From: a virus
Strand: one strand, 5' to 3'
Length of the DNA: 58,161 nt
Virus record (IMG/VR): IMGVR_UViG_3300044825_001220
Location: 1 to 58,161 of that record
Position 1 is the stretch's first letter; every line of letters starts with the position of its first letter. Positions 21,966 through 52,586 of the stretch are shown one piece after another. Both the position numbers and the translations under genes were made by a program. The notes below the pieces were generated by a model that ran no database searches, was not told the origin of the DNA, and worked only from the letters and a program-made list of their open reading frames with translations.

Positions 21966-21974
21966 TGATATAGT
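21966..21974 (+). promoter_or_regulatory. Possible extended -10 promoter for the first early gene
   Basis: TGATATAGT fits an extended -10 element (TGn followed by TATAGT). No good -35 box lies upstream. It is about 105 bases before the ATG at 22081, in front of the inverted repeat. Weak evidence. Confidence 0.3.
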
Positions 21975-22010: not shown

Positions 22011-22042
22011 GAACAAACCGACAACCCCCTGTCGGATTGTTC
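22011..22042. repeat. Dispersed inverted repeat, copy 1
   Basis: Arms GAACAAaCCGACA and TGTCGGaTTGTTC, 12 of 13 positions pairing, 6-base loop. It lies 39 bases before the ATG at 22081. It is one of nine copies between 22.0 and 32.7 kb. Confidence 0.75.
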
Positions 22043-22080
22043 GGGCGCTGTGCCCGTTCTTTATTGAAAGGAAAAACATC

Positions 22081-22752
22081 ATGGCTAAATCTATTCCTGT
22101 TGTCGCGGCTCAGTCTGCGATCCCCGGTGTCAATGAAGCCCCTGTGGCTGAAGCGGCTGTGGTTCTCTCACCCTCGGAACTCGAGACAATCGAGCAGTTG
22201 GGGCGCGACTACTGGATGGCCGAGGACGCCAAAGCGGTCGCGGATCGCAAGCTGAGCCAATGTGACGTGGCGCTTTTCGATATCGTCAAAGGCGTCAGCT
22301 ATCGGCGCTTCATGGCGATCCGTGCGGCCTACGTCACGGGATGCCGGGACAAAGGCGCGGCTACTGATGAAGCGGCGGCCAAAGTGTGGGAGCGCGCAAT
22401 CAATCGCATTGGCAATTCGTGCGGTTTCGAGCGTCCCAAAGCTGAGTCGGAAGCGGCAAAGCGCATGGCGGCTAAGCGGGAAGCGCTGGCCAAGCAGTTC
22501 GAGTCCAAGACGGACGGCGAGTTGATCGAACAGCGCAATGCCCTCGTGGCCTTTGGCGATACTAAGTCGCTGAAGCAGGCGACAGAGATTGCCAAAGAGA
22601 TCGAGCGGCGCGAAAAGCCCGTACTGGATGAGGCGCAAAACCAGCGGGTGGCCGTGCGTGACAAGCTGATTGCCCGTGCCAAGGAATTGTGCAAGGCGGG
22701 CACGGCGGATGCGGATGACAAGATGATCCGCGCCCTTCAGGCTATGTCGTAA
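22081..22752 (+). CDS. Early protein of unknown function, helical
   Basis: A 223-residue protein (MAKSIPVVAAQSAIPGVNEA start), largely helical and rich in Ala, Lys, Glu and Arg. A Gly/Phe patch (GNSCGFERPKAESEAAKRMA) interrupts two long helical stretches. I see no catalytic motif. GAAAGGA precedes the ATG. It is the first rightward gene, following a copy of the inverted repeat and a possible promoter. DNA- or protein-binding early function is possible but not supported further. Confidence 0.6.
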   Translation: MAKSIPVVAAQSAIPGVNEAPVAEAAVVLSPSELETIEQLGRDYWMAEDAKAVADRKLSQCDVALFDIVKGVSYRRFMAIRAAYVTGCRDKGAATDEAAAKVWERAINRIGNSCGFERPKAESEAAKRMAAKREALAKQFESKTDGELIEQRNALVAFGDTKSLKQATEIAKEIERREKPVLDEAQNQRVAVRDKLIARAKELCKAGTADADDKMIRALQAMS

Positions 22753-22768
22753 CCCGAGCGGGCATATC

Positions 22769-22960
22769 ATGAGAGACATTCATGCTGTGCCCGCCATCGG
22801 GCGGGACTACAAATCCATGGCGGCTGTCAAAGCCGATTGGGCGGCGGGCAAGGATTTTCGTTGCACTCTAACCGGGCGCTATTTTAGCGTACGGGATAAT
22901 TTGCCCTGCGAAGTCTGGGTGCGCTACGCCCGCATGACCAAAGTCGTTAGAGTTAAGTAA
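22769..22960 (+). CDS. Small conserved phage protein
   Basis: A 63-residue protein with SMAAVKADWAAGKDFRCTLT and a C-terminal VWVRYARMTKVVRVK. The pattern 'V..DW..GkdF.......vn.rY..l.kvv.v' is a common tiny phage protein with no known role. It ends 6 bases before a strong terminator, so it closes the first early transcription unit. Confidence 0.6.
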   Translation: MRDIHAVPAIGRDYKSMAAVKADWAAGKDFRCTLTGRYFSVRDNLPCEVWVRYARMTKVVRVK

Positions 22961-22966
22961 ATTATT

Positions 22967-23003
22967 GGCCCTCGGTGCTTCGGCGCTGAGGGCCGTTTTT
23001 TTT
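22967..23003 (+). terminator. Rho-independent terminator with UUCG loop
   Basis: A 12-bp stem (22967-22978 with 22983-22994) capped by TTCG and followed by G and eight T (22996-23003). It is directly downstream of the stop at 22960. Confidence 0.9.
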
Positions 23004-23077
23004 GGCCCGCGTGGCCCGCCCGGACTGACTCGGCGGCGGCGCGGGCGGCGCTGAGCGTAGTTCCTGATAGTAGTTCC

Positions 23078-23118
23078 GGAGGATCGGTGGAGGATCGGTG
23101 GAGCTTGCGCGGCAAGCT
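23078..23118. repeat. Direct repeat pair plus hairpin
   Basis: GGAGGATCGGT occurs twice in tandem (23078-23088, 23089-23099), followed at once by a perfect inverted repeat AGCTTGC-gcg-GCAAGCT (23102-23118). All lie in non-coding DNA. Confidence 0.6.
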
Positions 23119-23180
23119 ATGCTGGCGTAAGGGTTGTTTGCCGTGAAGCATCGGCGTAGTCTGCGCGGCGGGCGGGGCCG

Positions 23181-23209
23181 AACAAAGCGACAAAGTGTCG
23201 GATTGTTTA
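23181..23209. repeat. Dispersed inverted repeat, copy 2
   Basis: GAACAAAGCGACA, 3-base spacer, TGTCGGATTGTTT. Intergenic. Confidence 0.7.
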
Positions 23210-23685
23210 CCTTGAGTTTCTATGCACAGGGGCGCTGACGCCTCGCCCGCCTCGCCTAGTGTACCTAAGTACTACTTTTAACCATATCAAACTCGGCACA
23301 TTTACAAAACGTGTAATACCGGCAAAGCGGGCCCCGCTGGCATCGCGGCTTCCCCAGTAAGCAGCTACTGACTAATGTTGTTAAACGGACTTGATTTCCT
23401 GGCTAATATATCATTTATTCATCCTAAGCATATCTTATTCGCCATGCCCGCATCGGCAAACCGTTGATTTTCCTAGCTTTCTTCTTCTTTACTTTAAATA
23501 AAATAAATAATATATGATGTTGTTCCTGACTTGGGGGTATAGAGAACAAAGCACCAGTTCACCCCCACGCCCATGCCTACCCGACCCCCACCCCCTCGCT
23601 TTTCCCGCCCCTTCTTTCCCTATTCCTCAAAGTCTGGAACAACATCTTTTATTTTTTATCAAACCCTTTTTTACCCTTGATTTTA

Positions 23686-23713
23686 TTGACTTTCGCCCCG
23701 AGTATGATATGCT
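23686..23713 (+). promoter_or_regulatory. Sigma70-type promoter before the HNH-like gene
   Basis: TTGACT (23686-23691), 16-base spacer, TATGCT (23708-23713). It lies about 57 bases before the ATG at 23770 in an otherwise gene-free stretch. Confidence 0.5.
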
Positions 23714-23769
23714 TACCCCGCAAGTTTTGTTATCTTGCCGGTTAACTCTATCAAACTCAAGGAGCCACC

Positions 23770-24501
23770 ATGGGACGCCCAATCCGCTACGCCAACGCCG
23801 ACAACCTCCTCGCCAACTGCACCATCAAGGACGACTGCTTTCTCTGGCCCGAGTCCTCAACCCCCATGCCGATGCTCAGCCCCGCATCGCCTCTGACCAA
23901 GCAGTTCGGTACATCCTCTGTTGTGCGTATCCTATTCTCTATCTGTAGGTACGTACCGGCGGGTCCACGGCTGGTGCGTCGATGCAGCCACCGCTTCTGC
24001 GTCAACCCGTACCACTACTCCGAGGCCAAAGAGTTCCGCGCTCGGCGGGCGAAGCTCACCGACCCCCATGGACTCCTGCCCGAGCAGGAGGGCTCGCGCC
24101 ACCTCATCGCCCCGCCCGACGAGGTTCTCTATTCCATGCGCCCGACTGACCCATTTCACGTTAAGGTTCTGATGGACGCGGCGGTCATGGCGGGCTTCGA
24201 CGCCAAGGGCATCGTGAACAAGCGCAGTTACGCACCGATCCCCAAGCCCGAGCCCCGCTACGCCGACCCCCAGAAGCCTGTGCTTGTCGTGCGCGGCAAG
24301 GCCAAGCCCGCCTCGAGCCCAGACGGCGGCTCCCTCGACGATATCGAGGAGTCCTTGGGGAAAACCCACAACCCTCGGGACTTCCCACCCACCCAAGACC
24401 AGCGTGATTTGGACAGCATCTTCAGCCTCATCCACCACCGGGACCGCCTCCTCGAAGCGGGCGTAGCGAAAACCCACGGTGCGGAACAGCCTGGAAACTA
24501 G
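23770..24501 (+). CDS. HNH-nuclease-like zinc-binding protein
   Basis: A 243-residue protein. Residues 17-80 hold CFLWP at one end and a cluster LVRRCSHRFCVNPYHYSEAK at the other. The spacing and the CxxHxxCxNPxHY block resemble zinc-bound HNH folds ('H.C.N..CvNP.Hl') seen in phage homing nucleases. The first His of the usual 'HhC' is Arg here, so catalysis is uncertain and it may act as a DNA-binding protein instead. The C-terminal half is Pro-rich, then acidic. AAGGAG precedes the ATG. Confidence 0.5.
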   Translation: MGRPIRYANADNLLANCTIKDDCFLWPESSTPMPMLSPASPLTKQFGTSSVVRILFSICRYVPAGPRLVRRCSHRFCVNPYHYSEAKEFRARRAKLTDPHGLLPEQEGSRHLIAPPDEVLYSMRPTDPFHVKVLMDAAVMAGFDAKGIVNKRSYAPIPKPEPRYADPQKPVLVVRGKAKPASSPDGGSLDDIEESLGKTHNPRDFPPTQDQRDLDSIFSLIHHRDRLLEAGVAKTHGAEQPGN

Positions 24502-24533
24502 GCGAACCCGAGCCTCTATTGGCGAACATGGAC

Positions 24534-24562
24534 TTGACAAAGTCCAATTTATATGGTACAAT
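24534..24562 (+). promoter_or_regulatory. Strong sigma70 promoter P1
   Basis: TTGACA (24534-24539), 17-base spacer beginning AAGTCCA, TACAAT (24557-24562). Consensus -35 and near-consensus -10. It drives the rightward small-gene operon starting at 24674. The spacer start matches those of the promoters at 32766 and 40314. Confidence 0.88.
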
Positions 24563-24577
24563 GTACGAAGTACATTG
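24559..24577. promoter_or_regulatory. Operator-like palindrome at P1
   Basis: CAATGTAC-gaa-GTACATTG is a perfect 8-bp-arm dyad covering the end of the -10 box and the expected start site. A partial second copy (CAATGTACGACGT) begins at 24593, 34 bases downstream. The placement would let a dimeric repressor block P1. Confidence 0.65.
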
Positions 24578-24611
24578 AGCGCTAGGGGGCGGCAATGTAC
24601 GACGTGACGTA

Positions 24612-24640
24612 GAACTCTCCGACACCGTGTCGCTTTGTTC
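24612..24640. repeat. Dispersed inverted repeat, copy 3 (reverse orientation)
   Basis: Read on the minus strand it is GAACAAAGCGACA-cgg-TGTCGGAGAGTTC. The left arm is identical to that of copy 2. It lies in the leader between P1 and the first gene of the operon. Confidence 0.7.
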
Positions 24641-24673
24641 TAGACCAGCAACTTTCCTATATTGGAGGATACG

Positions 24674-24901
24674 ATGACCACCACATTGACTTTTGCCCAG
24701 CTGCGTGAAGTGCAGCTCCCCCTGAACATAAGGAACGTAAGCATCTACCCGAACGGGCGGATGTACGTGTCATTCGACAACCCGTCGAATGACCTCCGGG
24801 CTACTAAGCCCTGGAGTTCCGAGGTTACCCTGGACAAGGCCAAAGTTTTGTTTGCCCACCTCGGCACCGGAGTCCACCCTGTTCGCGCCGTCTGGGGGTG
24901 A
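24674..24901 (+). CDS. Small early protein, unknown
   Basis: A 75-residue protein (MTTTLTFAQLREVQLPLNIR). A central VSIYPNGRMYVSFDNPSND strand pair and a C-terminal TLDKAKVLFAHLGTGVHPVR helix are visible. GGAGG precedes the ATG by 6-7 bases. It is the first gene of the P1 operon. No family recognised. Confidence 0.6.
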   Translation: MTTTLTFAQLREVQLPLNIRNVSIYPNGRMYVSFDNPSNDLRATKPWSSEVTLDKAKVLFAHLGTGVHPVRAVWG

Positions 24902-24904
24902 GCG

Positions 24905-25108
24905 ATGACCGATGACCGACTAATCGAACTGCACAACAGTATTGTTGACTACGTGCAGTACTACGCAGACGGGGTGCTCACGCTGCCCGAGTTCGCCGCC
25001 CGCATCGCGGCAATCCACAACGAGTTGACCGCCGACAGCCCCATCGGGCTGCTCGACCCCGTCAGCGGGCTGCGCCTCGTTCAGGAGTACTGCCATGGAC
25101 CCGTTTGA
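24905..25108 (+). CDS. Small early protein, unknown
   Basis: A 67-residue helical protein (MTDDRLIELHNSIVDYVQYY ... PEFAARIAAIHNELTADSP). It follows the previous gene by 3 bases and overlaps the next micro-gene by 14. No known domain. Confidence 0.55.
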   Translation: MTDDRLIELHNSIVDYVQYYADGVLTLPEFAARIAAIHNELTADSPIGLLDPVSGLRLVQEYCHGPV

Positions 25109-25202
25109 TTTCTCTGGCCCCGGGCGGGCGTGGCGCATCGTGCTGCTGCTTGCAATCGTGGTCGTGCTGTGCCTCGACCTGTTCGTGTGGAGGCCGCTAT
25201 GA
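25095..25202 (+). CDS. 35-residue single-span membrane protein
   Basis: A short open frame encoding MDPFDFSGPGRAWRIVLLLA and then IVVVLCLDLFVWRPL. Residues 14-30 form one strongly hydrophobic helix, preceded by an Arg pair. CAGGAG lies 7 bases before the ATG. It overlaps the end of the upstream gene and its TGA overlaps the next ATG (ATGA). The good ribosome site and coupling on the downstream side argue that it is expressed. Role unknown; membrane-targeting early proteins often alter host envelopes. Confidence 0.55.
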   Translation: MDPFDFSGPGRAWRIVLLLAIVVVLCLDLFVWRPL

Positions 25203-25423
25203 GTGACTTCTTTGAATGTGAGTGCTGTGGCGATGACGTTCACTCTGCCCGCTGGGCACTCGACTACCGCGTTTGTCTCAAGTGCGGTGATCTGCTTGCA
25301 GAGGATGCCCGGGCTTCGTGGTGCATCGTGCAAGAGTACGGCAAGGGCCCGTACCAGTTTGTGACCGCCGCGTCCGCTCCCCGGACTCTGCTGGACACGA
25401 ACCAGAAGTGCCCTCGTTCCTAA
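25199..25423 (+). CDS. Small zinc-ribbon phage protein
   Basis: A 74-residue protein. Cysteine pairs at the start (ECECCGDD) and at RVCLKCGD (residues 26-29) form a likely zinc site. The C-terminal WCIVQEYGKGPYQFVTAASA resembles a common family in phages whose end reads like 'w.vap..ksnY.L.t....l..inNkg'. Function unknown. Start is coupled to the 35-residue gene (ATGA). Confidence 0.6.
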   Translation: MSDFFECECCGDDVHSARWALDYRVCLKCGDLLAEDARASWCIVQEYGKGPYQFVTAASAPRTLLDTNQKCPRS

Positions 25424-25450
25424 CTTTCCGTCACTTTTGTCGGATTGTTT
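25422..25450. repeat. Dispersed inverted repeat, copy 4 (reverse orientation)
   Basis: AACTTTCCGTCA-ctttt-GTCGGATTGTTT, directly at the stop of the preceding gene and 26 bases before the next ATG. It is nearly identical to copy 5, including the following CTTCCAACC. Confidence 0.7.
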
Positions 25451-25475
25451 CTTCCAACCAACTTTGGAGAGAGTA

Positions 25476-25718
25476 ATGATTGAAACCATCGTAGGAAAAA
25501 CCATCGCCGGCGTTCGCTACGTCGACCCGTGGAGCCGAGGGCTGACCATCGTGTTCACCGACGGCACCAAGCTGCGCGTCGATGAGCGGATGCAGGCGGG
25601 CGAGATCAATGTGGAGCTCAACAACGAGCCCGTTTCATATGGGGTGCAGGCGGGCGAGATCAATGTGGCGCTCAACAACGAGCCCGTTTCATATGAGCGG
25701 GATTTGGAGCAGGAATAA
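25476..25718 (+). CDS. Small protein with internal 18-residue duplication
   Basis: An 80-residue protein (MIETIVGKTIAGVRYVDPWS). After a small beta domain (GLTIVFTDGTKLRVDER) it contains QAGEINVELNNEPVSYG and then QAGEINVALNNEPVSYE, a tandem duplication at both protein and DNA level. GGAGAGAG precedes the ATG. The family with a 'v.Gkti..v......l.i.FtDG' head is common among tiny phage proteins. Role unknown. Confidence 0.6.
   Translation: MIETIVGKTIAGVRYVDPWSRGLTIVFTDGTKLRVDERMQAGEINVELNNEPVSYGVQAGEINVALNNEPVSYERDLEQE
25591..25698 (+). repeat. 54-bp tandem duplication inside a gene
   Basis: Copies at 25591-25644 and 25645-25698 differ at only a few positions (GAG to GCG near the middle). 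It keeps the frame (18 codons). Near identity indicates a recent event. Confidence 0.85.
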
Positions 25719-25730
25719 ACCCCACCAGCA

Positions 25731-25758
25731 AACTTTCCGTCATTCTGTCGGATTGTTT
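25731..25758. repeat. Dispersed inverted repeat, copy 5 (reverse orientation)
   Basis: AACTTTCCGTCA-ttc-TGTCGGATTGTTT, between the duplication gene and the MoxR gene, 28 bases before the ATG. Confidence 0.7.
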
Positions 25759-25786
25759 CTTCCAACCTTTGTATCAAGGACTAAAA

Positions 25787-26863
25787 ATGAAAACTGACGT
25801 TAACCTCATTCGCCGCGTGAACTTCGCGGAGACAGTCAATGTTCTGCTCAACGCGGGCGAGAACTCCGTGCATCTTGTTGGCGAGCCCGGTGTGGGCAAG
25901 ACCGCCATGCACAAGGAAATCATTGAGCGCACGGGGTTCCGTGGTATCTACATCGACGGGCCCAACACCGACGTGGGTCAGTCGGGTATGCCCATCCCCA
26001 ACCACCAGAGTAGGACGCTGGACTTCTATCCAGCCGAGTACTACGGACTGCACACGGGTGAGCCCCTGTGCATCATGATCGACGAGTGGACCAAGACTGA
26101 CGACTACGTGCGTAACACGTTGCACCCCCTGCTCCATGAGCGCAGGCTGGGTAACTTCAATCTCCACCCGGACAGCATTGTCTTCACCACCGGTAATCTG
26201 GACAGCGACGGCGTGGGCGACCACGTCAAGGCGCATACCCGGAGCCGACAAACTTGGTTGCCATACATGAAACCTACAGCTAAAGAATGGTGTGCTTGGG
26301 CCACCAACAACGGTATGACCGCCGAGGTCATCGCATGGGTACACGAGTACGAGCATTGCATGATGAGCTACTTGGACGGCGGGCAAGAGAAGAACCCGTA
26401 CATCTTCAATCCCAACGATGCGTCGCAGACCGCGTTCGTGTCCCCGCGCACGCTGGCCAAGGCGTCGCATTGGGTGCAACGCCGTTCTGCGTTATCGGAA
26501 AACGCGTTCATCGCCTGCCTTGACGGCACTATCGGCTACGCGGCATCGCGGGATTTGCAGGCGTACATCGAGCTTGCCGATCAACTGCCAACACGGGAGT
26601 CCATCGAGACTTCGCCCGAGACGGCGACTGTGCCCACCAGCCCAGCGGCCCAGTGCATCTTGATGTTCAAGGCTGTGGCTGTGGTGAGCCGCGACAACTT
26701 TGCGACGTGGATGCGCTACGTCAAGCGCATGCCCAAAGAGACACAGGCTGTGTTCATCAACAGCTTGCTCGAAGTCAGGGACAAGAAGGCATGGGCCATC
26801 GTGCATCCGAGTTTCGTGACCTGGGCTCGTGAGAACCAGTACATGTTTGCTGGCTTGAAATAA
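25787..26863 (+). CDS. MoxR-family AAA+ ATPase
   Basis: A 358-residue ATPase. Walker A is GEPGVGKT (residues 32-39), Walker B is CIMIDE (95-100), and sensor 1 is in IVFTTGN (131-137). A basic segment HTRSRQTW may hold the arginine finger. The C-terminal third is the helical lid. MoxR proteins work with von Willebrand A-domain partners in remodelling or metal-insertion complexes. Such a partner is encoded at 28060-29331. The six genes between them are tiny and coupled, so the whole block is one operon. AAGGA precedes the ATG. Confidence 0.85.
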   Translation: MKTDVNLIRRVNFAETVNVLLNAGENSVHLVGEPGVGKTAMHKEIIERTGFRGIYIDGPNTDVGQSGMPIPNHQSRTLDFYPAEYYGLHTGEPLCIMIDEWTKTDDYVRNTLHPLLHERRLGNFNLHPDSIVFTTGNLDSDGVGDHVKAHTRSRQTWLPYMKPTAKEWCAWATNNGMTAEVIAWVHEYEHCMMSYLDGGQEKNPYIFNPNDASQTAFVSPRTLAKASHWVQRRSALSENAFIACLDGTIGYAASRDLQAYIELADQLPTRESIETSPETATVPTSPAAQCILMFKAVAVVSRDNFATWMRYVKRMPKETQAVFINSLLEVRDKKAWAIVHPSFVTWARENQYMFAGLK

Positions 26864-26885
26864 ACGACAAATTGTCGGAATGTTT
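26862..26885. repeat. Dispersed inverted repeat, copy 6
   Basis: AAACGACA-aat-TGTCGGAATGTTT, starting inside the MoxR stop codon and ending just before the GGAGG of the next gene. Confidence 0.65.
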
Positions 26886-26894
26886 GGAGGACAC

Positions 26895-27062
26895 ATGAAC
26901 ACCGAGAAACAAATCAGCAACCCACCCCAGCCAGATTGGCGCGACCCGAACAGCGGATGCTACTGCGTGGTCTGCTTGGCCCCGGTCAAGGAGGACATCT
27001 TCGTGCAGCGGCAGGGGTGCTGCCCCGACCACAAGTTCGATGATGAATGCACCTACACATGA
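26895..27062 (+). CDS. 55-residue cysteine-rich protein
   Basis: Six Cys and one His (C22, C24, C27, C42, C43, H46, C52) suggest one or two zinc knuckles. The frame starts MNTEKQISNPPQPDWRDPNS. GGAGG precedes the ATG. It is the first of six tiny genes between the MoxR and VWA genes. No family recognised. Confidence 0.55.
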   Translation: MNTEKQISNPPQPDWRDPNSGCYCVVCLAPVKEDIFVQRQGCCPDHKFDDECTYT

Positions 27063-27073
27063 GGGGTAATCAA

Positions 27074-27238
27074 ATGAACAACCAACGCACCGAGGCGCAA
27101 GCCTACGCGAACTTTGTGGACTACACCGGCTTTGTGACGATCATGCCATTCGCTGATCATCCCACCGCGTGCGAGGCCATGTGTGAGTTCTTTGAGCAAT
27201 GGCTCAACCTTGCCAAACAACGGGGAGAACTGGAATGA
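27074..27238 (+). CDS. 54-residue early protein, unknown
   Basis: MNNQRTEAQAYANFVDYTGF followed by TACEAMCEFFEQWLNLAKQR. It has a helical C-terminus. GAGGGG lies 8-9 bases before the ATG. The end overlaps the next start (ATGA). Confidence 0.5.
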   Translation: MNNQRTEAQAYANFVDYTGFVTIMPFADHPTACEAMCEFFEQWLNLAKQRGELE

Positions 27239-27402
27239 CTAGAGAAGATTGGATCATCCTGCGCCTGCTGATGACAACATCGAAGGCCAATCTGCACAAC
27301 GACTTGGACGTAGCCCGGTCGATCATGCATTTGATCAAGAGGTACGGACAGGATGCGGTGAACAACTGCATCGACCAACTGCACAAGGAGAGAAGCAAAT
27401 GA
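27235..27402 (+). CDS. 55-residue helical early protein, unknown
   Basis: MTREDWIILRLLMTTSKANL then DVARSIMHLIKRYGQDAVNN, all helical and amphipathic. The start and stop are both coupled to neighbours by ATGA overlaps. No family recognised. Confidence 0.5.
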   Translation: MTREDWIILRLLMTTSKANLHNDLDVARSIMHLIKRYGQDAVNNCIDQLHKERSK

Positions 27403-27644
27403 TGCCGAAAAGCGTATGGAAAGTGACGGGTCGTCACATCGAAGATAGCCCGGATGGAGTTCTGTTCGAGGCGTACTTCACCGACAGGGACACGGCTCAC
27501 GCTGTGTACCACAAGGGTGAGCGCGAGTACGGCATAGCCGCTGGCTACACCAAGATGCGCTGGTCATTGGAGGGGTTCTACCTCAACAACGACCCGCACA
27601 TTGACCAGATGTTCAACGATGTTCGTGAAGCAATGGAGGAATGA
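27399..27644 (+). CDS. 81-residue early protein, unknown
   Basis: MMPKSVWKVTGRHIEDSPDG ... YGIAAGYTKMRWSLEGFYLN. A mixed alpha/beta composition with conserved-looking aromatic residues. ATGA start coupling. AAGGAGAG lies upstream inside the previous gene. No family recognised. Confidence 0.5.
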   Translation: MMPKSVWKVTGRHIEDSPDGVLFEAYFTDRDTAHAVYHKGEREYGIAAGYTKMRWSLEGFYLNNDPHIDQMFNDVREAMEE

Positions 27645-27645
27645 A

Positions 27646-27831
27646 ATGAAACACATCTACTGCCTGTGGCAGGAGGAAGAAGTCATCCCGAGGCTGTGGT
27701 TCGACACGAAGGAAGCCGCTGAAACCGCCGCCCGGATGCTCTATCCCAACGAATCGCCTGAGATGCGGTACTCCCGCATCTACGAGCGCCCCCTGCGATC
27801 CCTCAACGACCTCACCGGAGAAACCAAATGA
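27646..27831 (+). CDS. 61-residue early protein, unknown
   Basis: MKHIYCLWQEEEVIPRLWFD then AAETAARMLYPNESPEMRYS. GGAGG lies just upstream in the end of the previous gene. The stop overlaps the next start (ATGA). No family recognised. Confidence 0.5.
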   Translation: MKHIYCLWQEEEVIPRLWFDTKEAAETAARMLYPNESPEMRYSRIYERPLRSLNDLTGETK

Positions 27832-28076
27832 AACGACCATTCGTAACTCAGTATTTCACAGAAAGCGATGCCTCGGGCAAGAAGCCCGTGAGCATGGGCT
27901 ACGCCGCAAGCGTGGGCGGAGCGCGTAAGAACATGGCGGTGCGTATCGTCATCGGCCAGTACGGTCTAGCCGTCGTGCTTGACCGCGAGTCGCGTGATGT
28001 GATCAGCACCATGCGTAGGACCAAAGCTGGAATGTCAATCAAAGATATGGGGGTGCAAGATGTTGCTCAAAAATAA
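27828..28076 (+). CDS. 82-residue early protein upstream of the VWA gene
   Basis: MKRPFVTQYFTESDASGKKP and KNMAVRIVIGQYGLAVVLDR are visible strands, with a basic RRTKAGMSIKD stretch. It overlaps the VWA gene by 17 bases, pointing to coupled expression and perhaps a joint function. No family recognised. Confidence 0.5.
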   Translation: MKRPFVTQYFTESDASGKKPVSMGYAASVGGARKNMAVRIVIGQYGLAVVLDRESRDVISTMRRTKAGMSIKDMGVQDVAQK

Positions 28077-29331
28077 AATGCCTGCTGAGCGCAGGCTCGA
28101 ACTTGTTCATGTATCGCTGATGCGGGACAAAGCGTTCGCGTTCTTCGCGGGCTTATTCATGGTCGGTAAGACGACCATCCTCGACAAGCCAATCACGGCG
28201 CGGACCAACGGGCGTGACGTTGAGTACGGGCGTGCGTTCGTGGACGGGCTCACCGACAAGGAGCTTGCCTTTCTTGTGCTTCACGAGAACATGCACAAGT
28301 GCTATCGCCATCTCACAACGTGGCGGGCGTTGTTCGACAAGGACAAGCGCCGTGCCAACATGGCGTGCGACTTTGTCATCAACATCCAGTTGCGTGATAT
28401 GGACCCGGAGGAGCGCCTGATCGCCATGCCTCGGGATCGCAAGACCGGGGAGTTCATCGGTTGCTACGACGTGCAGTATCGTGGAATGGATACCAAGCAG
28501 GTTTGGGATGCGCTCGAAGGCAAGACGAAAGACAAAGACAAAGACAAGGGCCGGGGCGGCGCGGGCGACAAGGGTCAGGGTGACCCCGAACAAGGCGACG
28601 GAATGTCGGAAAGTTCAGACGATGGCTATGACGCACTCGATGAGCACGATTGGGAAGGCGCACAGGAGCTGTCTCAGAAAGAACAGCAAGACCTTGAGCG
28701 TGAGATCGACCGGGCCCTGCGGCAGGGCGGCATCTACGCGGGCAAGATGGGCGGCAATATGTCACGCGACATTGAGCGACTGCTTGAACCCAAGGTTGAT
28801 TGGCGCGAGGTGTTGCGCCGGTTCGTGCGTACTTCACTCACGGATCGGGACAGCCCGTCGTGGCGCAAGGCGCACAAGCGGTATCTCTGGCAGGACATTA
28901 TCTTGCCGAGCATCATCGGTAAGCGTATGAAGTCGCTGGCCGTGGGCATCGACACATCTGGTTCTATCCAAGGCGATCTGCTCGGTGCGTTCATGGGCGA
29001 GCTTGACAAGGTGGTGCGTACCGTATCGCCTGATCGCGTGGACATCATGTACTGGGACACCAACGTGGCTAGGCACGAGGTGTACACCAGCAACGCCCAG
29101 TCCATCGTTGACAGCACCAAGCCAGCGGGCGGTGGTGGCACAGACCCGGACTGCGTACCTGCGTTCATGCGAGATCACAAGATCAATCCTGACGCACTCA
29201 TCATGCTGACGGATGGGTTCATGAGTAGCGACTCCGGCAGGTGGGCGCATCTGTCGTGTCCTGTTCTCTGGTGTGTGATTGGTAACCCGAACGTGTCCAT
29301 CCCGAAGGGGTCTGTGGTTCGCGTCGAGTGA
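28060..29331 (+). CDS. DUF2201-type metallopeptidase-like/VWA protein, MoxR partner
   Basis: A 423-residue two-domain protein. Residues 70-85 contain FLVLHENMHKCYRH with a zincin-like HExxH (H75, E76, H79), as in the DUF2201 N-terminal putative peptidase domain. A charged Lys/Asp/Gly linker (about 154-190) leads to a VWA domain with an intact MIDAS: D298-x-S300-x-S302, T361-D362 and LTDG. Such proteins pair with MoxR ATPases, and one is encoded 1.2 kb upstream. The linker includes the peptide encoded by inverted-repeat copy 7. Phage function is unknown; complex remodelling or host interference is inference. Confidence 0.8.
   Translation: MLLKNKMPAERRLELVHVSLMRDKAFAFFAGLFMVGKTTILDKPITARTNGRDVEYGRAFVDGLTDKELAFLVLHENMHKCYRHLTTWRALFDKDKRRANMACDFVINIQLRDMDPEERLIAMPRDRKTGEFIGCYDVQYRGMDTKQVWDALEGKTKDKDKDKGRGGAGDKGQGDPEQGDGMSESSDDGYDALDEHDWEGAQELSQKEQQDLEREIDRALRQGGIYAGKMGGNMSRDIERLLEPKVDWREVLRRFVRTSLTDRDSPSWRKAHKRYLWQDIILPSIIGKRMKSLAVGIDTSGSIQGDLLGAFMGELDKVVRTVSPDRVDIMYWDTNVARHEVYTSNAQSIVDSTKPAGGGGTDPDCVPAFMRDHKINPDALIMLTDGFMSSDSGRWAHLSCPVLWCVIGNPNVSIPKGSVVRVE
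28588..28616. repeat. Dispersed inverted repeat, copy 7 (inside coding sequence)
   Basis: GAACAAGGCGACG-ga-ATGTCGGAAAGTTC, read in frame as EQGDGMSESS in the linker of the VWA protein. Almost identical to copy 8 and in the same reading frame. Confidence 0.75.
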
Positions 29332-29366
29332 CCCGTGTTAACAAGTTCTTTTATTAGGAGTCGATC

Positions 29367-29606
29367 ATGACTGATCATGTGATTTTGACCATTGGTGAAA
29401 CGAAGTTCGTGTTGACCACGAACGAGGCGTTTGGTATCGCCAACATACTCAACGGTTCCACGCAGATAACCACTGCGTGGCTGAATGGGAAAAGCAGAAG
29501 AGTGTACGGCGAGCCGAAGATGGATGCGGCGCACATTGCCCCGATCAACGGACCACTTCAGCTTGAGCTGGAGACGAACACCAAAGAACGCGAGGCATCG
29601 AAATGA
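29367..29606 (+). CDS. 79-residue early protein, unknown
   Basis: MTDHVILTIGETKFVLTTNE then AFGIANILNGSTQITTAWLN. It looks like a small beta domain followed by a helix. AGGAG precedes the ATG. Its stop overlaps the next start. No family recognised. Confidence 0.55.
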   Translation: MTDHVILTIGETKFVLTTNEAFGIANILNGSTQITTAWLNGKSRRVYGEPKMDAAHIAPINGPLQLELETNTKEREASK

Positions 29607-29773
29607 AACAGATACCGCTCGATACTTTCTCGGTCAAGTTGAACCGAGAGACTTGGGACCTGCTTGTTCAGGTCCGCACAGAACTCGGGGCCAAGCTCGG
29701 GTTTGAACCTACGAACGGCCAAGTCGTTCGCCATCTCATCGCCATTTACTTTGGAGAAGCAAGCAATGTATAA
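29603..29773 (+). CDS. 56-residue ribbon-helix-helix-like protein
   Basis: A short frame beginning MKQIPLDTFSVKLNRETWDL and ending HLIAIYFGEASNV. The N-terminal strand (TFSVKLN), a helix (RETWDLLVQVRTEL) and a second helix (TNGQVVRHLIAIYF) match the ribbon-helix-helix layout of small DNA-binding regulators. The start overlaps the upstream stop (ATGA) and the end overlaps the next gene by 8 bases. It could regulate the early operons. Confidence 0.5.
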   Translation: MKQIPLDTFSVKLNRETWDLLVQVRTELGAKLGFEPTNGQVVRHLIAIYFGEASNV

Positions 29774-30836
29774 CACGTACGGAGCACCATCCCTGTCAAC
29801 CTATCAGGCGGCATTGGATTGGTACAACAAAACCAAACCCATTCGTGGGGCAACCACAAGGCCCATCGGCAACAGACGCTACCACCACTCGGCGTCGATA
29901 GATAAGCGCGAAGACAACATCGTGCTGGTCTACGAGCGGCAACCGCTGATCGTGTGGGAGCCTGACTCGACGTTCACGCTTCGTGCACCTGCGTACTACA
30001 ACGCATATCAAGCGGACCGGTTGTACGGCTGGGGCCCGAGGGGCATGCGGTTTAACTGGGACAGCGGGCGTTTATTTGTTGTGAACAGGGACGACAACAT
30101 ACATCTGCCTGAGGGCGGGTCGCTCAGGTTTGTGCCGACGAGCGATTCCCCGTTTCCAACGTACCAGTGCGTCACCGAACGCAGCAGTCTTGAGTACAAG
30201 ATGCGGCGCGGGGTTGCAAACAAGCTGGCTTCCGCACAATGCGTGGACTTTCTCGCTTGGGCACAAGTTGTTCTGGCGACAAGCACCCCGGTTGTGTACG
30301 AGGAGTGCGTCGAGGCGCGGGGGAGACTTCAGACTGCTGTCGGGTATTCACCCGAGTTCATAAAAGAGATGGACTCGCGGCATCAGACAAGTAACAGTCC
30401 TGAAGCAGAGCACGCTCGTCGGAGGTGGTATCGACTGCACAACCGGATCAGAAGCCTCCCGTTTCGGTTGACCAACGATGGGAGGGGCTGGGTGTTTGCG
30501 CCCGCGTGTAGAGTCATGTTGGATCAAATCACTTCGACGGATTACGCGCAATGGGATGACGTGCTCAAGGTAATCGCCGGTCACTCAGGTCGGAGTCTGT
30601 ACACACCGGTGTCTCACGGCAACGGGTTCAGTCGGATGCTGACGCGCCAAGCCTTGACGTTCGATGGGGTAGTGGAGTTCATCCATAAGCTGATAGCTTG
30701 TGTTTACCGAGACGCGGTGTTCGAGGTAGTCCCTGTGCGTAACGGCGCGATGCCGTCTGCGCGTAACTCCGGTTTCTTCCGCGACATGCTGGATGAACCG
30801 GAACAAGGCGACAAATTGTCGGAAAGTTCTGTTTAA
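29766..30836 (+). CDS. 356-residue early protein, unknown
   Basis: Starts MYNTYGAPSLSTYQAALDWY. It has many Arg, Tyr and Trp residues, with strands such as NIVLVYERQPLIVWEPDSTF and LRFVPTSDSPFPTYQCVTER. A helical C-terminal half includes FDGVVEFIHKLIACVYRDAV. No motif is recognised. GGAG precedes the ATG. The last ten residues are encoded by inverted-repeat copy 8. It lies between the VWA and DUF3150 genes and may belong to the same functional block. Confidence 0.6.
   Translation: MYNTYGAPSLSTYQAALDWYNKTKPIRGATTRPIGNRRYHHSASIDKREDNIVLVYERQPLIVWEPDSTFTLRAPAYYNAYQADRLYGWGPRGMRFNWDSGRLFVVNRDDNIHLPEGGSLRFVPTSDSPFPTYQCVTERSSLEYKMRRGVANKLASAQCVDFLAWAQVVLATSTPVVYEECVEARGRLQTAVGYSPEFIKEMDSRHQTSNSPEAEHARRRWYRLHNRIRSLPFRLTNDGRGWVFAPACRVMLDQITSTDYAQWDDVLKVIAGHSGRSLYTPVSHGNGFSRMLTRQALTFDGVVEFIHKLIACVYRDAVFEVVPVRNGAMPSARNSGFFRDMLDEPEQGDKLSESSV
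30801..30829. repeat. Dispersed inverted repeat, copy 8 (end of coding sequence)
   Basis: GAACAAGGCGACA-aat-TGTCGGAAAGTTC, read in frame as EQGDKLSESS, three codons before the stop at 30836 with one Val between. Same frame and nearly the same peptide as copy 7. Confidence 0.8.
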
Positions 30837-30850
30837 CCAAGGAGTCAATC

Positions 30851-31729
30851 ATGAGCCAAGTAAATTTCGAAACCCCAACCCTTTCGCTCGCATCCATGGC
30901 GATGCTGGTCGAGCTACGCATCAGCACGTGGACTGCGCGTAAGCGTGACAACGCGACGACTGAGGAAGTCAACCGATCAAAGAACGCCAACGACGATGCG
31001 GGCAGCGTCTACAAGTACCTCATGGCGGGCAGTGATCACCTCAAGAAGATCGAGAAGTACGCGGCCAAGTGCCGGGCGTGGAACGGCCAGCAGACCCTGC
31101 CGTGGATGAAGGGCGTGGGCTTGCTCCCGATGGAGAACTTCTTTTCGTATCGAGAGCAGCTCGGCACGATGGAATCCAATTTCAACGGATTGGTTGAAGA
31201 CTTCATCAAGGTCTACCCGTCGCTCGTCAGCGCACAGGCGTTCAAGCTCGGGGATTACTTCGTGGCCGAGGAGTTCCCGCTGGTGGAGTCATTGCCCCGC
31301 CGGTTCCGCTTTGAATACAACTTCCTCCCGGTTCCAGAGAAGGGGGACTTCCGTATTAAATGCGAGGAGCGAGTGCGCCAAGACTTGGCCGAGCAGTACG
31401 ACAAGATGTTCAACCAGAAGCTGGCCGAGGCGATGCGTGAACCGTGGCAGCGACTGCACGATGTGCTGGTGCATATGACCGAGCGACTGAGTGACGCGAG
31501 CGATGGCACCCGCAACATCTTCCGCGACTCCATCGTGAACAAACCGCTGGAGTTGTGCGCCCTGCTGTCCAAGCTCAACGTGACCAAGGACCCGCAGCTT
31601 GAGGAAGCGCGGCGCATGCTGGAGGTGGCGCTCGTTGGCGTAAGCCCTGACGACTTGCGCAATATCCCATCGGCGCGGGCTGAGCTGAAGTCAAGCGTCC
31701 AAGAGATCATCAACAAGTTCACATGGTAA
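30851..31729 (+). CDS. DUF3150-like protein
   Basis: A 292-residue helical protein. The head (LVELRISTWTARKRDNATTE), GSVYKYLMAGSDHLKKIEKY, the block TLPWMKGVGLLPMENFFSYR and FLPVPEKGDFRI follow the DUF3150 pattern as I remember it. Such proteins occur in many phages and plasmids with unknown function. AAGGAG precedes the ATG. The next gene starts 10 bases after its stop. Confidence 0.65.
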   Translation: MSQVNFETPTLSLASMAMLVELRISTWTARKRDNATTEEVNRSKNANDDAGSVYKYLMAGSDHLKKIEKYAAKCRAWNGQQTLPWMKGVGLLPMENFFSYREQLGTMESNFNGLVEDFIKVYPSLVSAQAFKLGDYFVAEEFPLVESLPRRFRFEYNFLPVPEKGDFRIKCEERVRQDLAEQYDKMFNQKLAEAMREPWQRLHDVLVHMTERLSDASDGTRNIFRDSIVNKPLELCALLSKLNVTKDPQLEEARRMLEVALVGVSPDDLRNIPSARAELKSSVQEIINKFTW

Positions 31730-31739
31730 GGAGTGATTC

Positions 31740-32645
31740 ATGTCTAACGTAGAAAGCAAAAACCCCAAGGTCATACCAGACCCGTTCCTGCTTGAACTGT
31801 TCAAGCGCGTGGCGCTGGTCAATTCAAACCTCAAGTTTGTGTACGACTTTGTAAATGGTAATCATCAGCCATACACCACGAAGCAAAGCTGCATAAAACG
31901 GAGCGACGGTACAAGGGAGACTGCACCGGAGGATTATTCTTTCGGGCAGTACTACGATGTGTACGACAACGGCAAGCCGTGCGGTGTCGTGCGTGTTGAC
32001 TATCAGTATCAGCGAAACAAGGGGAACGTTTCGATGTACGCCATCAAGTCGCACCTCGTCGAGCGGACGAGTCGTGGGCGTGGCTTCATACGCACGGGTG
32101 ACGTAGCCAAGGCTGTGGCAAACGCCAAGAAGTACCTACGCGCTCCAACGGATGGGTACACCTTGTTCAACAAGCTGGCCGAGGCAGACAGCACCATGCG
32201 TGATGTTGTGTCAGACTTGATGCGCCCCATCACCCGTGGCAACTTCCTGACAGACATAACGAGTGCGCAGGTACTACTGAATGCTTACATGACCGGACGC
32301 CCCGTTGACACCCAACTGGAAAGCGCGATGCGGGCTAAGCTGACATCAGACAAGTTCGACGCCGCGCTCAGCGAGTACTATCTTGCTAAATGGCTTCGGG
32401 ATTTACCGGGCACAGAGCGACTGTTTGTTCATCGCAACGGCACAAGCTATTCGTTCTTTACATCCAACCCGGACCCGGGCTCTGAAGAGGCGGCGATAAC
32501 CACACCGGTTGTGACGGTGGAGTTTGAGGACTTACCCCTCAAGACGCAAGAACGACTAAGTGTGCTGCAACTTATGAAAGACCGTGAGGTAGTCTTGAAT
32601 GTCGGCATCCGCATAACAGACACCGAGTTCTTCATAAGAGTGTAA
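31740..32645 (+). CDS. 301-residue early protein, unknown
   Basis: Begins MSNVESKNPKVIPDPFLLEL. It is rich in Tyr and Arg in the first half (DYSFGQYYDVYDNGKPCGVV) and helical in the middle (TDITSAQVLLNAYMTGRPVD). The end is TDTEFFIRV. I recognise no family. AAGGAG precedes the ATG. It is the last gene before the terminator at 32665 and probably ends the P1 operon. Confidence 0.6.
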   Translation: MSNVESKNPKVIPDPFLLELFKRVALVNSNLKFVYDFVNGNHQPYTTKQSCIKRSDGTRETAPEDYSFGQYYDVYDNGKPCGVVRVDYQYQRNKGNVSMYAIKSHLVERTSRGRGFIRTGDVAKAVANAKKYLRAPTDGYTLFNKLAEADSTMRDVVSDLMRPITRGNFLTDITSAQVLLNAYMTGRPVDTQLESAMRAKLTSDKFDAALSEYYLAKWLRDLPGTERLFVHRNGTSYSFFTSNPDPGSEEAAITTPVVTVEFEDLPLKTQERLSVLQLMKDREVVLNVGIRITDTEFFIRV

Positions 32646-32664
32646 GATCAACTGTCTGCCACTT

Positions 32665-32689
32665 GACCCGCTTCGGCGGGTCTTTTTTT
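32665..32689 (+). terminator. Rho-independent terminator with UUCG loop
   Basis: GACCCGC-TTCG-GCGGGTC followed by seven T. It lies 20 bases after the stop at 32645. Confidence 0.92.
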
Positions 32690-32704
32690 GCCTGTACTTT
32701 CCCC

Positions 32705-32733
32705 GAACAATCCGACATACTGTCGGTTTGTTT
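32705..32733. repeat. Dispersed inverted repeat, copy 9
   Basis: GAACAATCCGACA-tac-TGTCGGTTTGTTT. Eleven of the 13 arm positions pair. It sits between the terminator and the next promoter. Confidence 0.8.
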
Positions 32734-33463: not shown

Positions 33464-35280
33464 TCACACTCGATTTCGAAACTTTCTACGACAAAGATTT
33501 TAGTCTGTCGAAGATGACGACTGAGGAGTACGTGCGTGACCATTTGTTCGAGGTCATCGGTGTAGCTGTAAAAGTCAACGACGGACCGACCGAGTGGTTC
33601 AGCGGTGACCACGGGGAAACCGCGCAGTGGCTGGAACGGTTCGATTGGGGCAACAACTTCGTGTTAGCCCACAATGCCATGTTCGACGCGGCCATTCTGA
33701 CGTGGCGCTTTGGTATCCGCCCGAAAGCGTGGTTTGATACGCTGTCCATGGCCCGTGCTGTGCTCGGCCCCACGACGAGTGTGTCGCTGGCGTCGCTGGC
33801 ATCTCACTTCGGGCTGGGCGAGAAGGGCACCGAAGTCGAGGACGCCAAGGGTATGCGCCGTGGAGATTTCGACAGCGATCAACTGCACCGCTACGGACAG
33901 TACTGCCGCAACGATGTGGACCTGACGTATGCCGTGTACAAGGAACTTGAGGGCGCTGTATCGACCAAGGAGAAGCGGCTCATTGATCTGACCATCCGCA
34001 TGTTCAGTGATCCGGTGCTGGTGCTGGATGTGCCGCGCCTTGAGACGCACCTGACGGAAGTCCGGGAGCGCAAGCGCAAACTCTTTGAAGACGCGCAGAT
34101 AACGCCTGAGGTGCTCAACAGCAACAAGAAGTTTGCTGCGCTGCTGGAGTCTTTTGAGGTGCTCACGCCCATGAAGATGAGCAAGACCACAGGCAAATGG
34201 ACGTATGCGTTCGCAAAGAGTGACGAGGAGTTCACGGCACTGCTCAACCACCCTGACGAGCGGGTTCAAGCTATTGTGGCTGCACGGTTGGGGGCCAAGT
34301 CTACGCTGGAGGAGACGAGGACCGAGCGGTTCATCGCCATCGCCAACCGCACGAAGGACAACCTGCTGCCCATCCCGCTCAAGTATTACGCTGCACACAC
34401 GGGCCGGTGGGGCGGCACTGACTCCGTCAACCTCCAGAATCTGCCGAGCCGGGGTGAGCGTGGCAACAAACTCAAGCGGTGTATCCGAGCCCCTGACGGG
34501 CATGTGATCATCGACTGTGACTCGTCGCAGATCGAAGCCCGAGTGCTGGCGTGGCTGGCGGGGCAGAACGATCTGTTGCTGCGCTTTGAGCGTAACGACG
34601 ATGTGTATCGGTACATGGCCTCGATGCTGTACGACAAGCGGCCCGATGAAGTGTCACCGGAGGAGCGGTTCATCGGCAAGACAACCGTGCTCGGTGCGGG
34701 CTACGGCATGGGTGCTGTAAAGTTCCAGGCCCAGTTGCAGTCCATGGGCAAGAACGTAGACTTGGATACCTGCAAGTACATCATCAAGGTGTACCGGCAG
34801 AGGAACCAAGCCATCTCACAGTGGTGGATCAGACTCAACGATGTGCTGGTCAGGATGGCCGCGCAACAGCCGATGGACGCGCTCGACGCCGTGGGCCTGC
34901 TGGAGTTGTCGGTGCTGGGCATGGGCATCCGGTTGCCCAACAACATGTATCTGAGCTACCCGGAGTTGCGGCGCGAAGCCCTCGGGGAGTACTCGTACAA
35001 GACACGGTACGGGCGCAACCGTATCTACGGCGGCAAGGTGGCCGAGAACATCTGCCAAGCTGTGGCCCGCTGCATCATCGGGGATCAGATGCTTGAGATT
35101 GCCAAGCGATACCGCGTGGTCCTGACCGTCCATGACGCGATAGCCTGCGTGGTCCGTGAGGAAGAGAAGGATGAAGCGGTTGCCTACGTGGAGAGCTGCA
35201 TGCGTAAAACGCCCGCGTGGGCTGAAGGGCTCCCGTTGAACTGTGAGTCCGGTGTTGGAGAAACTTATGGCGACTGCTAA
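33460..35280 (+). CDS. DNA polymerase, family A, with 3'-5' exonuclease
   Basis: A 606-residue replicative polymerase. Exonuclease: motif I D5-x-E7 (LDFETF), motif II N72..D76 (AHNAMFD), motif III Y148..D152 (YCRND). Polymerase: motif A with D354 (DCDSSQIEAR), motif B with K407 and Y415-G416 (FIGKTTVLGAGYG), motif C with H558-D559 (LTVHDAI). The Glu that follows the Asp in E. coli Pol I motif C is Ala here. No N-terminal 5' nuclease. It should copy the phage genome with the primase-helicase at 41976. Start is GTG, coupled to the upstream gene. Confidence 0.95.
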   Translation: MITLDFETFYDKDFSLSKMTTEEYVRDHLFEVIGVAVKVNDGPTEWFSGDHGETAQWLERFDWGNNFVLAHNAMFDAAILTWRFGIRPKAWFDTLSMARAVLGPTTSVSLASLASHFGLGEKGTEVEDAKGMRRGDFDSDQLHRYGQYCRNDVDLTYAVYKELEGAVSTKEKRLIDLTIRMFSDPVLVLDVPRLETHLTEVRERKRKLFEDAQITPEVLNSNKKFAALLESFEVLTPMKMSKTTGKWTYAFAKSDEEFTALLNHPDERVQAIVAARLGAKSTLEETRTERFIAIANRTKDNLLPIPLKYYAAHTGRWGGTDSVNLQNLPSRGERGNKLKRCIRAPDGHVIIDCDSSQIEARVLAWLAGQNDLLLRFERNDDVYRYMASMLYDKRPDEVSPEERFIGKTTVLGAGYGMGAVKFQAQLQSMGKNVDLDTCKYIIKVYRQRNQAISQWWIRLNDVLVRMAAQQPMDALDAVGLLELSVLGMGIRLPNNMYLSYPELRREALGEYSYKTRYGRNRIYGGKVAENICQAVARCIIGDQMLEIAKRYRVVLTVHDAIACVVREEEKDEAVAYVESCMRKTPAWAEGLPLNCESGVGETYGDC

Positions 35281-35524
35281 ACAGATTAAAGAAAACGCCC
35301 GCAAACGATTCATGTGGGCTGGATCACTCCGACAGCGTGGGCTCACGTACGCGGAGATCGGGAGAGTGCTTGGCGTTGGAACAGAGCGGGCGAGGCAGTT
35401 GGTGCTGAACTTTGAGCGGGACTGCACCCGGACAGCGCGTTGGGGTGGGTTGAAGCCACACGAATACATGGCGCTGAAGCCGCTTCAGGATTGGTTGGAT
35501 TTTTTAACGAAGGAAAGTAAATGA
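35267..35524 (+). CDS. Small sigma-region-4-like HTH protein
   Basis: An 85-residue protein. Residues about 20-55 (SLRQRGLTYAEIGRVLGVGT then ERARQLVLNFER) form a helix-turn-helix much like sigma70 region 4. Before it is a basic segment (KQIKENARKRF). No other sigma regions are present, so it is probably a DNA-binding regulator rather than a sigma factor. It overlaps the polymerase stop by 14 bases and its stop overlaps the next ATG. GGAG precedes its start. Confidence 0.65.
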   Translation: MATAKQIKENARKRFMWAGSLRQRGLTYAEIGRVLGVGTERARQLVLNFERDCTRTARWGGLKPHEYMALKPLQDWLDFLTKESK

Positions 35525-40768: not shown

Positions 40769-41668
40769 ATGACCAACCAAGTACAGACCTTCAAAGAAAA
40801 ACTGCCCGCGCATTTGCAGCGCGTTCAACTGGACGACTTCACCAAGGCGTTCACATCCTCTGGCGGTTCCGTCAAACGCATCTCGCTTCGTGGGCGCGTG
40901 TTCCGTATGGTCGATGGCGGCAAAGAGATCGCCAAGAACAAAGAACTGCACCTCGATGTGATTGTTGTGAATGGCTCCACGACTGTGCAGAAGACGTATC
41001 ACGCCAAGTCCTACGACCCGGACGAGACTTCGACTCCCGACTGCTGGTCCAGCAATGGTGAGCGGCCCGACCCCGAGGTAGAGGACCCGCAGTCTTCCAA
41101 CTGCAAGGAATGCCCGAAAGCCATCAAAGGCTCGGCGGGCGGCACCAAGACTTCGTGCCGGTTTTCCCAGCGTATCGCTGTCGTGCTGGCCAACAACCCC
41201 GGCGGCGACGTGTTCCAACTGGTGATCCCGTCGAAGTCTTTGTTCGGCGCGGGCGACATGGAGCACATGCCCTTCCTTCAGTACGCTCGCTATGTCGGCA
41301 ACTCGGGCTTCAACCTCAACATGCTGACCACACGTCTGATGTTCGACACGGACAGCGATGTGCCCAAGCTGTTCTTCAGCAACGTCGAGTTCCTCGATGT
41401 GGACACGCACAATCTGGTCATCGAACAGGGTCAGACCGCTGCGGCAGTCAACGCTGGCAAGCTCTCGTTTAAGAAGAAGGGTGAGACCGCTGCAAGCACT
41501 GAGATGCCCAAGCTCGTGGCACCGGCTGGGTCGGCTGCGGCCAAGGTCAAAGCAGAAGAAGCAGCAGCCAAGCCCGCTGCCAAGCCTAAGGCTGCGGAAC
41601 CCGCGCCCGCACCAGCCAAGGACACGGGGCTGAGCACCCTTGTCGATGAATGGGGTGACGACCAATGA
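40769..41668 (+). CDS. Putative single-stranded DNA-binding protein
   Basis: A 299-residue protein. Residues 35-170 form a probable OB-like core with a zinc motif (C92, C112 and C115 in CKECPKAIKGS, C129). The C-terminal 70 residues are Ala/Lys/Pro-rich, ending STLVDEWGDDQ. A short acidic, aromatic tail is a hallmark of SSBs, which use it to contact partners. Position next to primase and helicase supports this. The family is often left unnamed, so the call is tentative. AAGGAG precedes the ATG. Confidence 0.6.
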   Translation: MTNQVQTFKEKLPAHLQRVQLDDFTKAFTSSGGSVKRISLRGRVFRMVDGGKEIAKNKELHLDVIVVNGSTTVQKTYHAKSYDPDETSTPDCWSSNGERPDPEVEDPQSSNCKECPKAIKGSAGGTKTSCRFSQRIAVVLANNPGGDVFQLVIPSKSLFGAGDMEHMPFLQYARYVGNSGFNLNMLTTRLMFDTDSDVPKLFFSNVEFLDVDTHNLVIEQGQTAAAVNAGKLSFKKKGETAASTEMPKLVAPAGSAAAKVKAEEAAAKPAAKPKAAEPAPAPAKDTGLSTLVDEWGDDQ

Positions 41669-41886
41669 TTGGCTATACGCTGTATATGCAGCAGGTCAAC
41701 AAGTCCGCCGATACCAAGAGGCTCGGTGTGAAGTTGGGACGCCACTGCATCAAGAACAGTTTGTCCGTGGCTGCGCTGGCCAAGGAGTTCGGTGTGAGCC
41801 GTCAGACCATCTACAACTGGTTTTCCGGTAAGACTGAACCCACAAAGCAGCACACTCCACGGATCAAAGAAATTCTTGGTTTGTAA
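41665..41886 (+). CDS. Small Cro/Xre-type HTH regulator
   Basis: A 73-residue protein. KNSLSVAALAKEFGVSRQTI followed by YNWFSGKTEPTKQHTPRIKE is a clear helix-turn-helix of the lambda Cro/Xre type. It starts MIGYTLYMQQVNKS. ATGA coupling with the upstream gene. It could repress an early promoter such as P1 (palindrome at 24559), although this is conjecture. Confidence 0.75.
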   Translation: MIGYTLYMQQVNKSADTKRLGVKLGRHCIKNSLSVAALAKEFGVSRQTIYNWFSGKTEPTKQHTPRIKEILGL

Positions 41887-45069: not shown

Positions 45070-45097
45070 GCCCCGCCGTAACTGGCGGGGCTTTTTT
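45070..45097 (+). terminator. Rho-independent terminator between convergent operons
   Basis: GCCCCGCC-gtaact-GGCGGGGC followed by six T, 37 bases after the stop of the last rightward gene. The stop codon of the leftward giant gene (45096-45098) overlaps its T run. Confidence 0.9.
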
Positions 45098-52559: not shown

Positions 52560-52586
52560 GGTCAATCCTTCTCAGGGTGGCCCAGA

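Follow-up and report, generated by a model that had tools for sequence, protein, structure and literature searches.

Organization of the locus

The window analysed here is an entire IMG/VR record of 58,161 bp, probably from a phage of freshwater type. It and its relatives are contigs from metagenomes, classed by IMG/VR as linear, and gene starts were picked by script. The early region carries nine copies of an inverted repeat, together with four putative promoters and the gene of a candidate reader protein (Table 1). Each copy consists of a 13-nt arm, a loop and a second 13-nt arm, the half-site consensus (G/A)AAC-nnnn-CGACA facing its own reverse complement.

Table 1. Repeat sites, putative promoters and candidate reader gene in the window. 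Start points of P0, P1 and P2 are estimates.
Feature	Position	Strand	Loop (nt)	Description
P0	21935..21974	+		Single-copy conserved upstream box GTGTGSRGTTTYMCCC and -10 TATAGT (21969-21974), ahead of gene 22081
Site 1	22011..22042		6	GAACAAACCGACA-ACCCCC-TGTCGGATTGTTC; leader of 22081-22752, at about +30 of the expected P0 start point
Candidate reader	22081..22752	+		223 aa, predicted all-helical, no known family; covaries with the sites
Site 2	23180..23208		3	Intergenic; past an intrinsic terminator; expected P1 start point about 510 bp further downstream
P1	23686..23713	+		Sigma-70-type, gene 23770-24501; conserved among relatives
P2	24534..24562	+		Sigma-70-type, early operon; conserved among full genomes
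Site 3	24612..24640		3	About +43 of the expected P2 start point
Site 4	25421..25450		4	Overlaps stop codon of gene 25199-25423
Site 5	25730..25758		3	28 bp ahead of the AAA gene start (25787)
Site 6	26857..26885		3	Overlaps stop codon of the AAA gene (25787-26863)
Site 7	28588..28616		3	Within coding sequence of the VWA/metallopeptidase-like gene 28060-29331
Site 8	30801..30829		3	Final codons of gene 29766-30836; 21 bp ahead of gene 30851
Site 9	32705..32733		3	Between terminator 32665-32692 and promoter P3
P3	32766..32794	+		Sigma-70-type, conserved; precedes the replication block, with no site downstream of it

An earlier note on this DNA had described the nine-copy family, and all nine copies (9/9) were found in place, with none further in the window. 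Its placement of seven sites in intergenic or leader DNA, often touching a stop codon, and of two in coding sequence agrees with the exact coordinates, by which seven are intergenic, in a leader or across a stop codon and two (28588 and 30801) are coding. The reverse orientation that it assigned to copies 3-5 rests on small arm differences; as the element is a near-symmetric palindrome, the orientation of these copies carries no clear meaning.

A position matrix built from the nine window copies found only those nine in the 58,161 bp, the ninth scoring 29.1 bits and the next score (11.6 bits) being an overlapping register of site 6. Because a matrix from the window's own copies is circular, a second one was derived from 12 other phages (184 half-sites) with zero window data; it recovered the same nine sites at 29.6-45.7 bits, the next score being 4.3. 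The best score among 60 shuffled windows was 15.9 bits, which is below that of the lowest true site (29.6 bits). The scan of the window also confirmed that the structural genes and the 33-45 kb replication block are free of sites.

Several further features were noted. Sites 4 and 5 (25421-25787) have the common flank CTTCCAACC and bracket the small gene 25476-25718, which holds a tandem 54-bp duplication (25588-25695, 96% identical). A relative that is 98% identical (L009) carries at 990-1110 one fused site with the left flank of site 4 and the right flank of site 5, and the small gene is missing there, as if recombination between site copies could remove or add a cassette. The AT-rich leader before P1 contains a long imperfect inverted repeat with 49-nt arms (23503-23659, 80%). 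Gene 23770-24501, under its own promoter P1, encodes an HNH-like protein that is kept in 19/19 relatives and has a start of GRPxKY type and catalytic residues that appear degenerate. Outside the site region, 41665-41886 encodes a small conserved protein whose Cro/XRE-like HTH (GVSRQTIYNWF) makes it a further possible regulator, and 45096-52565 (minus strand) a protein of 2489 aa with an LPD39 domain (Pfam, E 9e-19).

Conservation and concerted change among relatives

Related loci were fetched by protein search, 48 with the AAA gene and 39 with the VWA gene. A palindrome is located just upstream of the AAA gene in all relatives aligned at the AAA leader, with arm sequences that differ, and this site was used as the seed for collecting the copies of each phage. 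In about 40 related IMG/VR phages, 5-12 copies per phage lie within the same approximately 12 kb around the AAA-ATPase gene. The consensus is particular to each phage and is altered in all copies and in both arms (318 sites, 40 phages). The consensus classes include GAAC..CCGACA, GAAC..CCAACA, GAAC..TCGAAT, GGAA/GGAC..TCGACA, GGAA..CCCTTG and GAAG..CCGACA. Among 12 full or near-full genomes the copies span about -4.2 to +7.8 kb of the AAA gene, and only one marginal match (in G011) was found outside this early span; in G005 the sites appear to run on across the record end.

The copies occupy syntenic places in diverged phages, and their position relative to the genes is conserved. The counterpart of site 1 lies 36-41 nt ahead of the 22081 start codon in the full relatives covering that gene, the geometry of P2 and site 3 is similar across full or near-full genomes, and a coding site at the place of site 7 recurs among relatives. 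A simple gene caller assigns 78% of the region to coding sequence, yet 73 of 98 sites fall between genes or across a stop codon, and many sites lie 8-41 bp ahead of start codons. That all copies in a phage change in concert points to a coevolving trans factor.

These data also bear on the suggestion that the repeats are a REP-like mobile element that spreads in early phage genes and has no regulatory role. Some flanking sequence is common to sites 4/5 and to sites 7/8, so that local duplication has happened, but the syntenic positions in diverged phages, the phage-specific change in concert with the protein described below, and a genome that is otherwise site-free make this reading scarcely credible.

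A candidate reader protein

Protein distance was compared with site-matrix distance for each conserved gene, background divergence being held constant (partial Mantel test). Gene 22081-22752 gave an r of 0.72 and a partial r of 0.64, with 0 of 500 permutations as high, followed by the DUF3150-like gene 30851 (partial r 0.35) and gene 38495 (0.28, p 0.058). The HTH and ribbon-helix-helix proteins that had been named as potential binders are not supported: the ribbon-helix-helix protein (29603-29773) had a partial r of 0.07, and the sigma-r4-like HTH protein (35243-35524) is present in 3/19 relatives. Other potential readers were rejected on their partial r, namely the HNH-like 23770 product (-0.01), the zinc-ribbon-like 25199 product (-0.20) and the fast-evolving 29766 (0.15) and 31740 (0.06) proteins.

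Individual residues of the 22081-22752 product covary with individual bases of the site. Arg133 occurs with C at site position 4 and Lys, Glu or Ala with A or G; Lys129 occurs with G at position 2 and Met, Val or Ile with A; Arg105 and Arg109 accompany C at position 12, their loss being restricted to cases in which that base has changed. Each of the three patterns is consistent in 34/34 cases. For position 4 the best column of this protein reached 0.97 vs 0.85 for the best column of any other protein, whereas positions 10, 12 and 13 are uninformative by themselves, since their rare classes are single clades and other proteins tie. On a tree built from six other proteins, a minimum of five changes is needed at position 4, two at position 2 and two at position 12; joint residue-base labels require no extra change (five again at position 4), which gives nine matched events in total. 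In class B (CCAACA) the protein has WQSP where most others carry Arg or Lys before the proline.

The pattern was carried over to loci outside this sample. Three loci (L131, L139 and L108), fetched solely by a match to the site pattern, encode divergent homologues of the 22081 product (E 3e-13 to 3e-5), and no other window gene was seen in them; in each, a site adjoins the homologue gene, which, as in the window, stands beside apparent terminase and portal genes. When the L131 homologue served as query, a protein search yielded nine further loci. The nine contigs examined, of which two overlap in sequence and one (L207) has only a weaker site, contain 27 sites (≤2 mismatches) vs 1.55 expected from shuffles, with 0 on the structural side. 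Within a pair of these homologues that are 73% identical (L199 and L200), residue 129 is Met in one and Lys in the other and the sites read GAAC and GGAC, respectively, as the pattern predicts. Arg109 is not kept in L139 and L108, yet their sites read CGACA, so that residue 109 does not represent a strict rule. The sites and the covarying residues come from a single data set, a limitation for which the L131 lineage compensates in part. Taken at the level of sequence, the covariation shows co-adaptation and is neutral on the sign of regulation, and the 22081-22752 product likely reads the sites.

No credible match to this product was found in Pfam, NCBIfam, PHROGs or PDB sequences, and no relative in INPHARED; a PDB profile match to 1hkq, a plasmid replication protein, was not considered significant (E 0.18). 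The AlphaFold2 monomer model is all-helical (pLDDT 86, pTM 0.55) and places the covarying residues in helices 96-114 and 124-140, which are followed by a long helix (161-206). A Foldseek search with the model returned nothing below E 0.49 in PDB or BFVD. The AAA protein, used in a search for the host, had no match in GTDB contigs.

Pairing within and between sites

For 318 sites from 40 phages, pairing was assessed within each site and, for comparison, across the different sites of one phage. The inner arms pair equally well in both cases (0.925 within vs 0.921 across sites, p 0.19), their mismatches comprise 16 G.U and 18 A.C, and 5 of 47 inner deviations (positions 9-12) are compensated. The outer arms show a small excess within sites (0.892 vs 0.885, p 0.023; 55 G.U vs 29 A.C), which leaves the verdict unchanged because the counts are dominated by related copies. 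The middle positions are less complementary within a site than across sites (0.509 vs 0.594); this A+T middle (site positions 5-8) behaves in the same way across all relatives, which suggests selection against a long hairpin or cruciform. The spacing is 3 in 284/318 sites and 4 in another lineage. Together, the pairing data are the reverse of what an RNA hairpin should show and fit double-stranded DNA with two half-sites that would be read separately.

The earlier note had also considered RNA processing or attenuation hairpins, and a protein-read RNA hairpin could in principle serve RNase III-type processing, attenuation or as a translational operator. The loops are short, the sites lie between a stop codon and a ribosome site, much as other phages have processing sites between their early genes, and there are the few copies that score as terminator-like. 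Given the lack of compensation within sites, inner arms without a G.U bias, a middle that avoids complementarity, a spacing that differs by lineage and so suggests protein geometry, and the position of sites 2 and 9 behind terminators, with site 9 before its promoter, such a role is improbable. Hairpin promoters of the N4 virion RNA polymerase type, brought to mind by the AAA/VWA genes and the 3-nt loops, were rejected, as the sites are symmetric, have independent half-sites and lie mostly away from likely starts. The remaining proposal of the earlier note, operators for a dimeric regulator, is the one favoured by the independent half-sites and by the covariation of site and protein.

Proposed mechanism of regulation

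We consider it probable that the nine elements are DNA operators of one dimeric regulator, the 22081-22752 product, which would act most likely as an elongation block and negative autoregulator. A half-site would comprise two boxes, an outer one of GAAC type and an inner one of CGACA type, at a distance of about 8-9 bp. One subunit would probably use two helices to read them, with residues 105 and 109 (helix 96-114) facing the inner box and 129 and 133 (helix 124-140) the outer box; the long helix 161-206 may serve dimerization.

The P0 element ahead of gene 22081 is conserved in relatives, with the -10 hexamer about 17 bp after the upstream box, and looks like an activator-dependent promoter. 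No site overlaps a promoter core, which leaves classical promoter occlusion unsupported. The sites instead lie past the P0 and P2 starts, at gene junctions along the early operon and behind the terminators at its borders. As judged from this geometry, the bound protein would stop elongation and would thereby shut down 24.6-32.6 kb and its own gene, whereas the leftward structural genes and the operon for replication (from P3) would stay free. The layout is that expected for elongation blocks with autoregulation, and from it we infer the sign of regulation.

The same protein and sites could act in the opposite sense, by activating or antiterminating early or middle transcription, or could organize or mark the DNA. 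Across genomes, site 9 is centred 41-61 bp upstream of the -35 hexamer of P3, where an activator could sit, many sites precede start codons at the short distances given above, and the covariation is compatible with either sign. Against this, most sites have no adjacent promoter, those at P0 and P2 lie downstream of the start point, which is unusual for activators, and those within the VWA gene are about 700 bp from the next start; we therefore rate this alternative as unlikely.

Several palindromic sites with one dedicated binder are also found in partition or centromere-like systems with dispersed sites, such as SopB/IR of N15 and KorB of RK2. The ParA-type ATPase domain PF13614 was matched in 0/14 records, which may be fragments, whereas a control was matched in 14/14; no integrase was found in these records, the binder is unrelated to known families and the sites are confined to early genes, so that a partition function appears very unlikely.

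For the operator reading, the lack of any match to an integrase, resolvase or ParA in the 14 records favours a role in timing (early shut-off) over one in lysogenic immunity, with the limits that possible fragments cannot prove absence and that, for records classed as linear, a missing integrase is no proof of a virulent life style.

Comparison with known systems and significance

The closest system in its presumed working is that of the cluster A mycobacteriophages (L5, Bxb1, TipsytheTRex), in which stoperators are bound by an immunity repressor (PMC9283540, PMC6550527). As in cluster A, the sites are dispersed, lie mostly off promoters in short intergenic spaces and have a phage-specific consensus that covaries with the (candidate) regulator, which would likewise have two DNA-reading elements per subunit. 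L5-type sites are 13 bp long, asymmetric and oriented with transcription, whereas the present ones are 29-bp near-symmetric palindromes confined to the early region; the L5-type repressor is a monomer with HTH and stoperator domains, to which the predicted all-helical protein has no detectable relation; and the stoperator phages of cluster A are temperate, whereas no integrase was found in the 14 records searched here. Since asymmetric oriented sites and an HTH repressor define the stoperator family, the system in the window is not filed as a member of it.

The C1 repressor of phage P1 controls lytic genes through 22 dispersed operators (PMC8546580). One repressor there, and one candidate regulator here, serves many dispersed operators; the operators of C1 differ in being 17 bp long, asymmetric and spread over P1, a temperate plasmid prophage. 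No match between C1 and the 22081 product was found in the family libraries searched. The repressor of the temperate Streptomyces phage phiC31 is a single regulator that acts on conserved inverted-repeat operators, intergenic among the early genes, and is a different protein from the 22081 product. The literature was also searched for palindromic sites in the early region of lytic phages, and nothing matching was listed.

Dispersed operators that block elongation are known mainly from temperate mycobacteriophages. In several phage lineages from environmental viromes that show no sign of lysogeny, a protein that is unrelated and unclassified appears to serve a comparable purpose through palindromic sites, which provides a likely role for a protein family described in none of the databases searched. 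Matched variants of protein and site occur as a natural series, with which the recognition code can be tested directly. More tentatively, the 22081 family may represent a novel type of DNA-binding protein whose residue-to-base code can be read. Apparently virulent phages would use it to switch off their whole early region, and its specificity may diversify because phages sharing a host can silence or escape each other.
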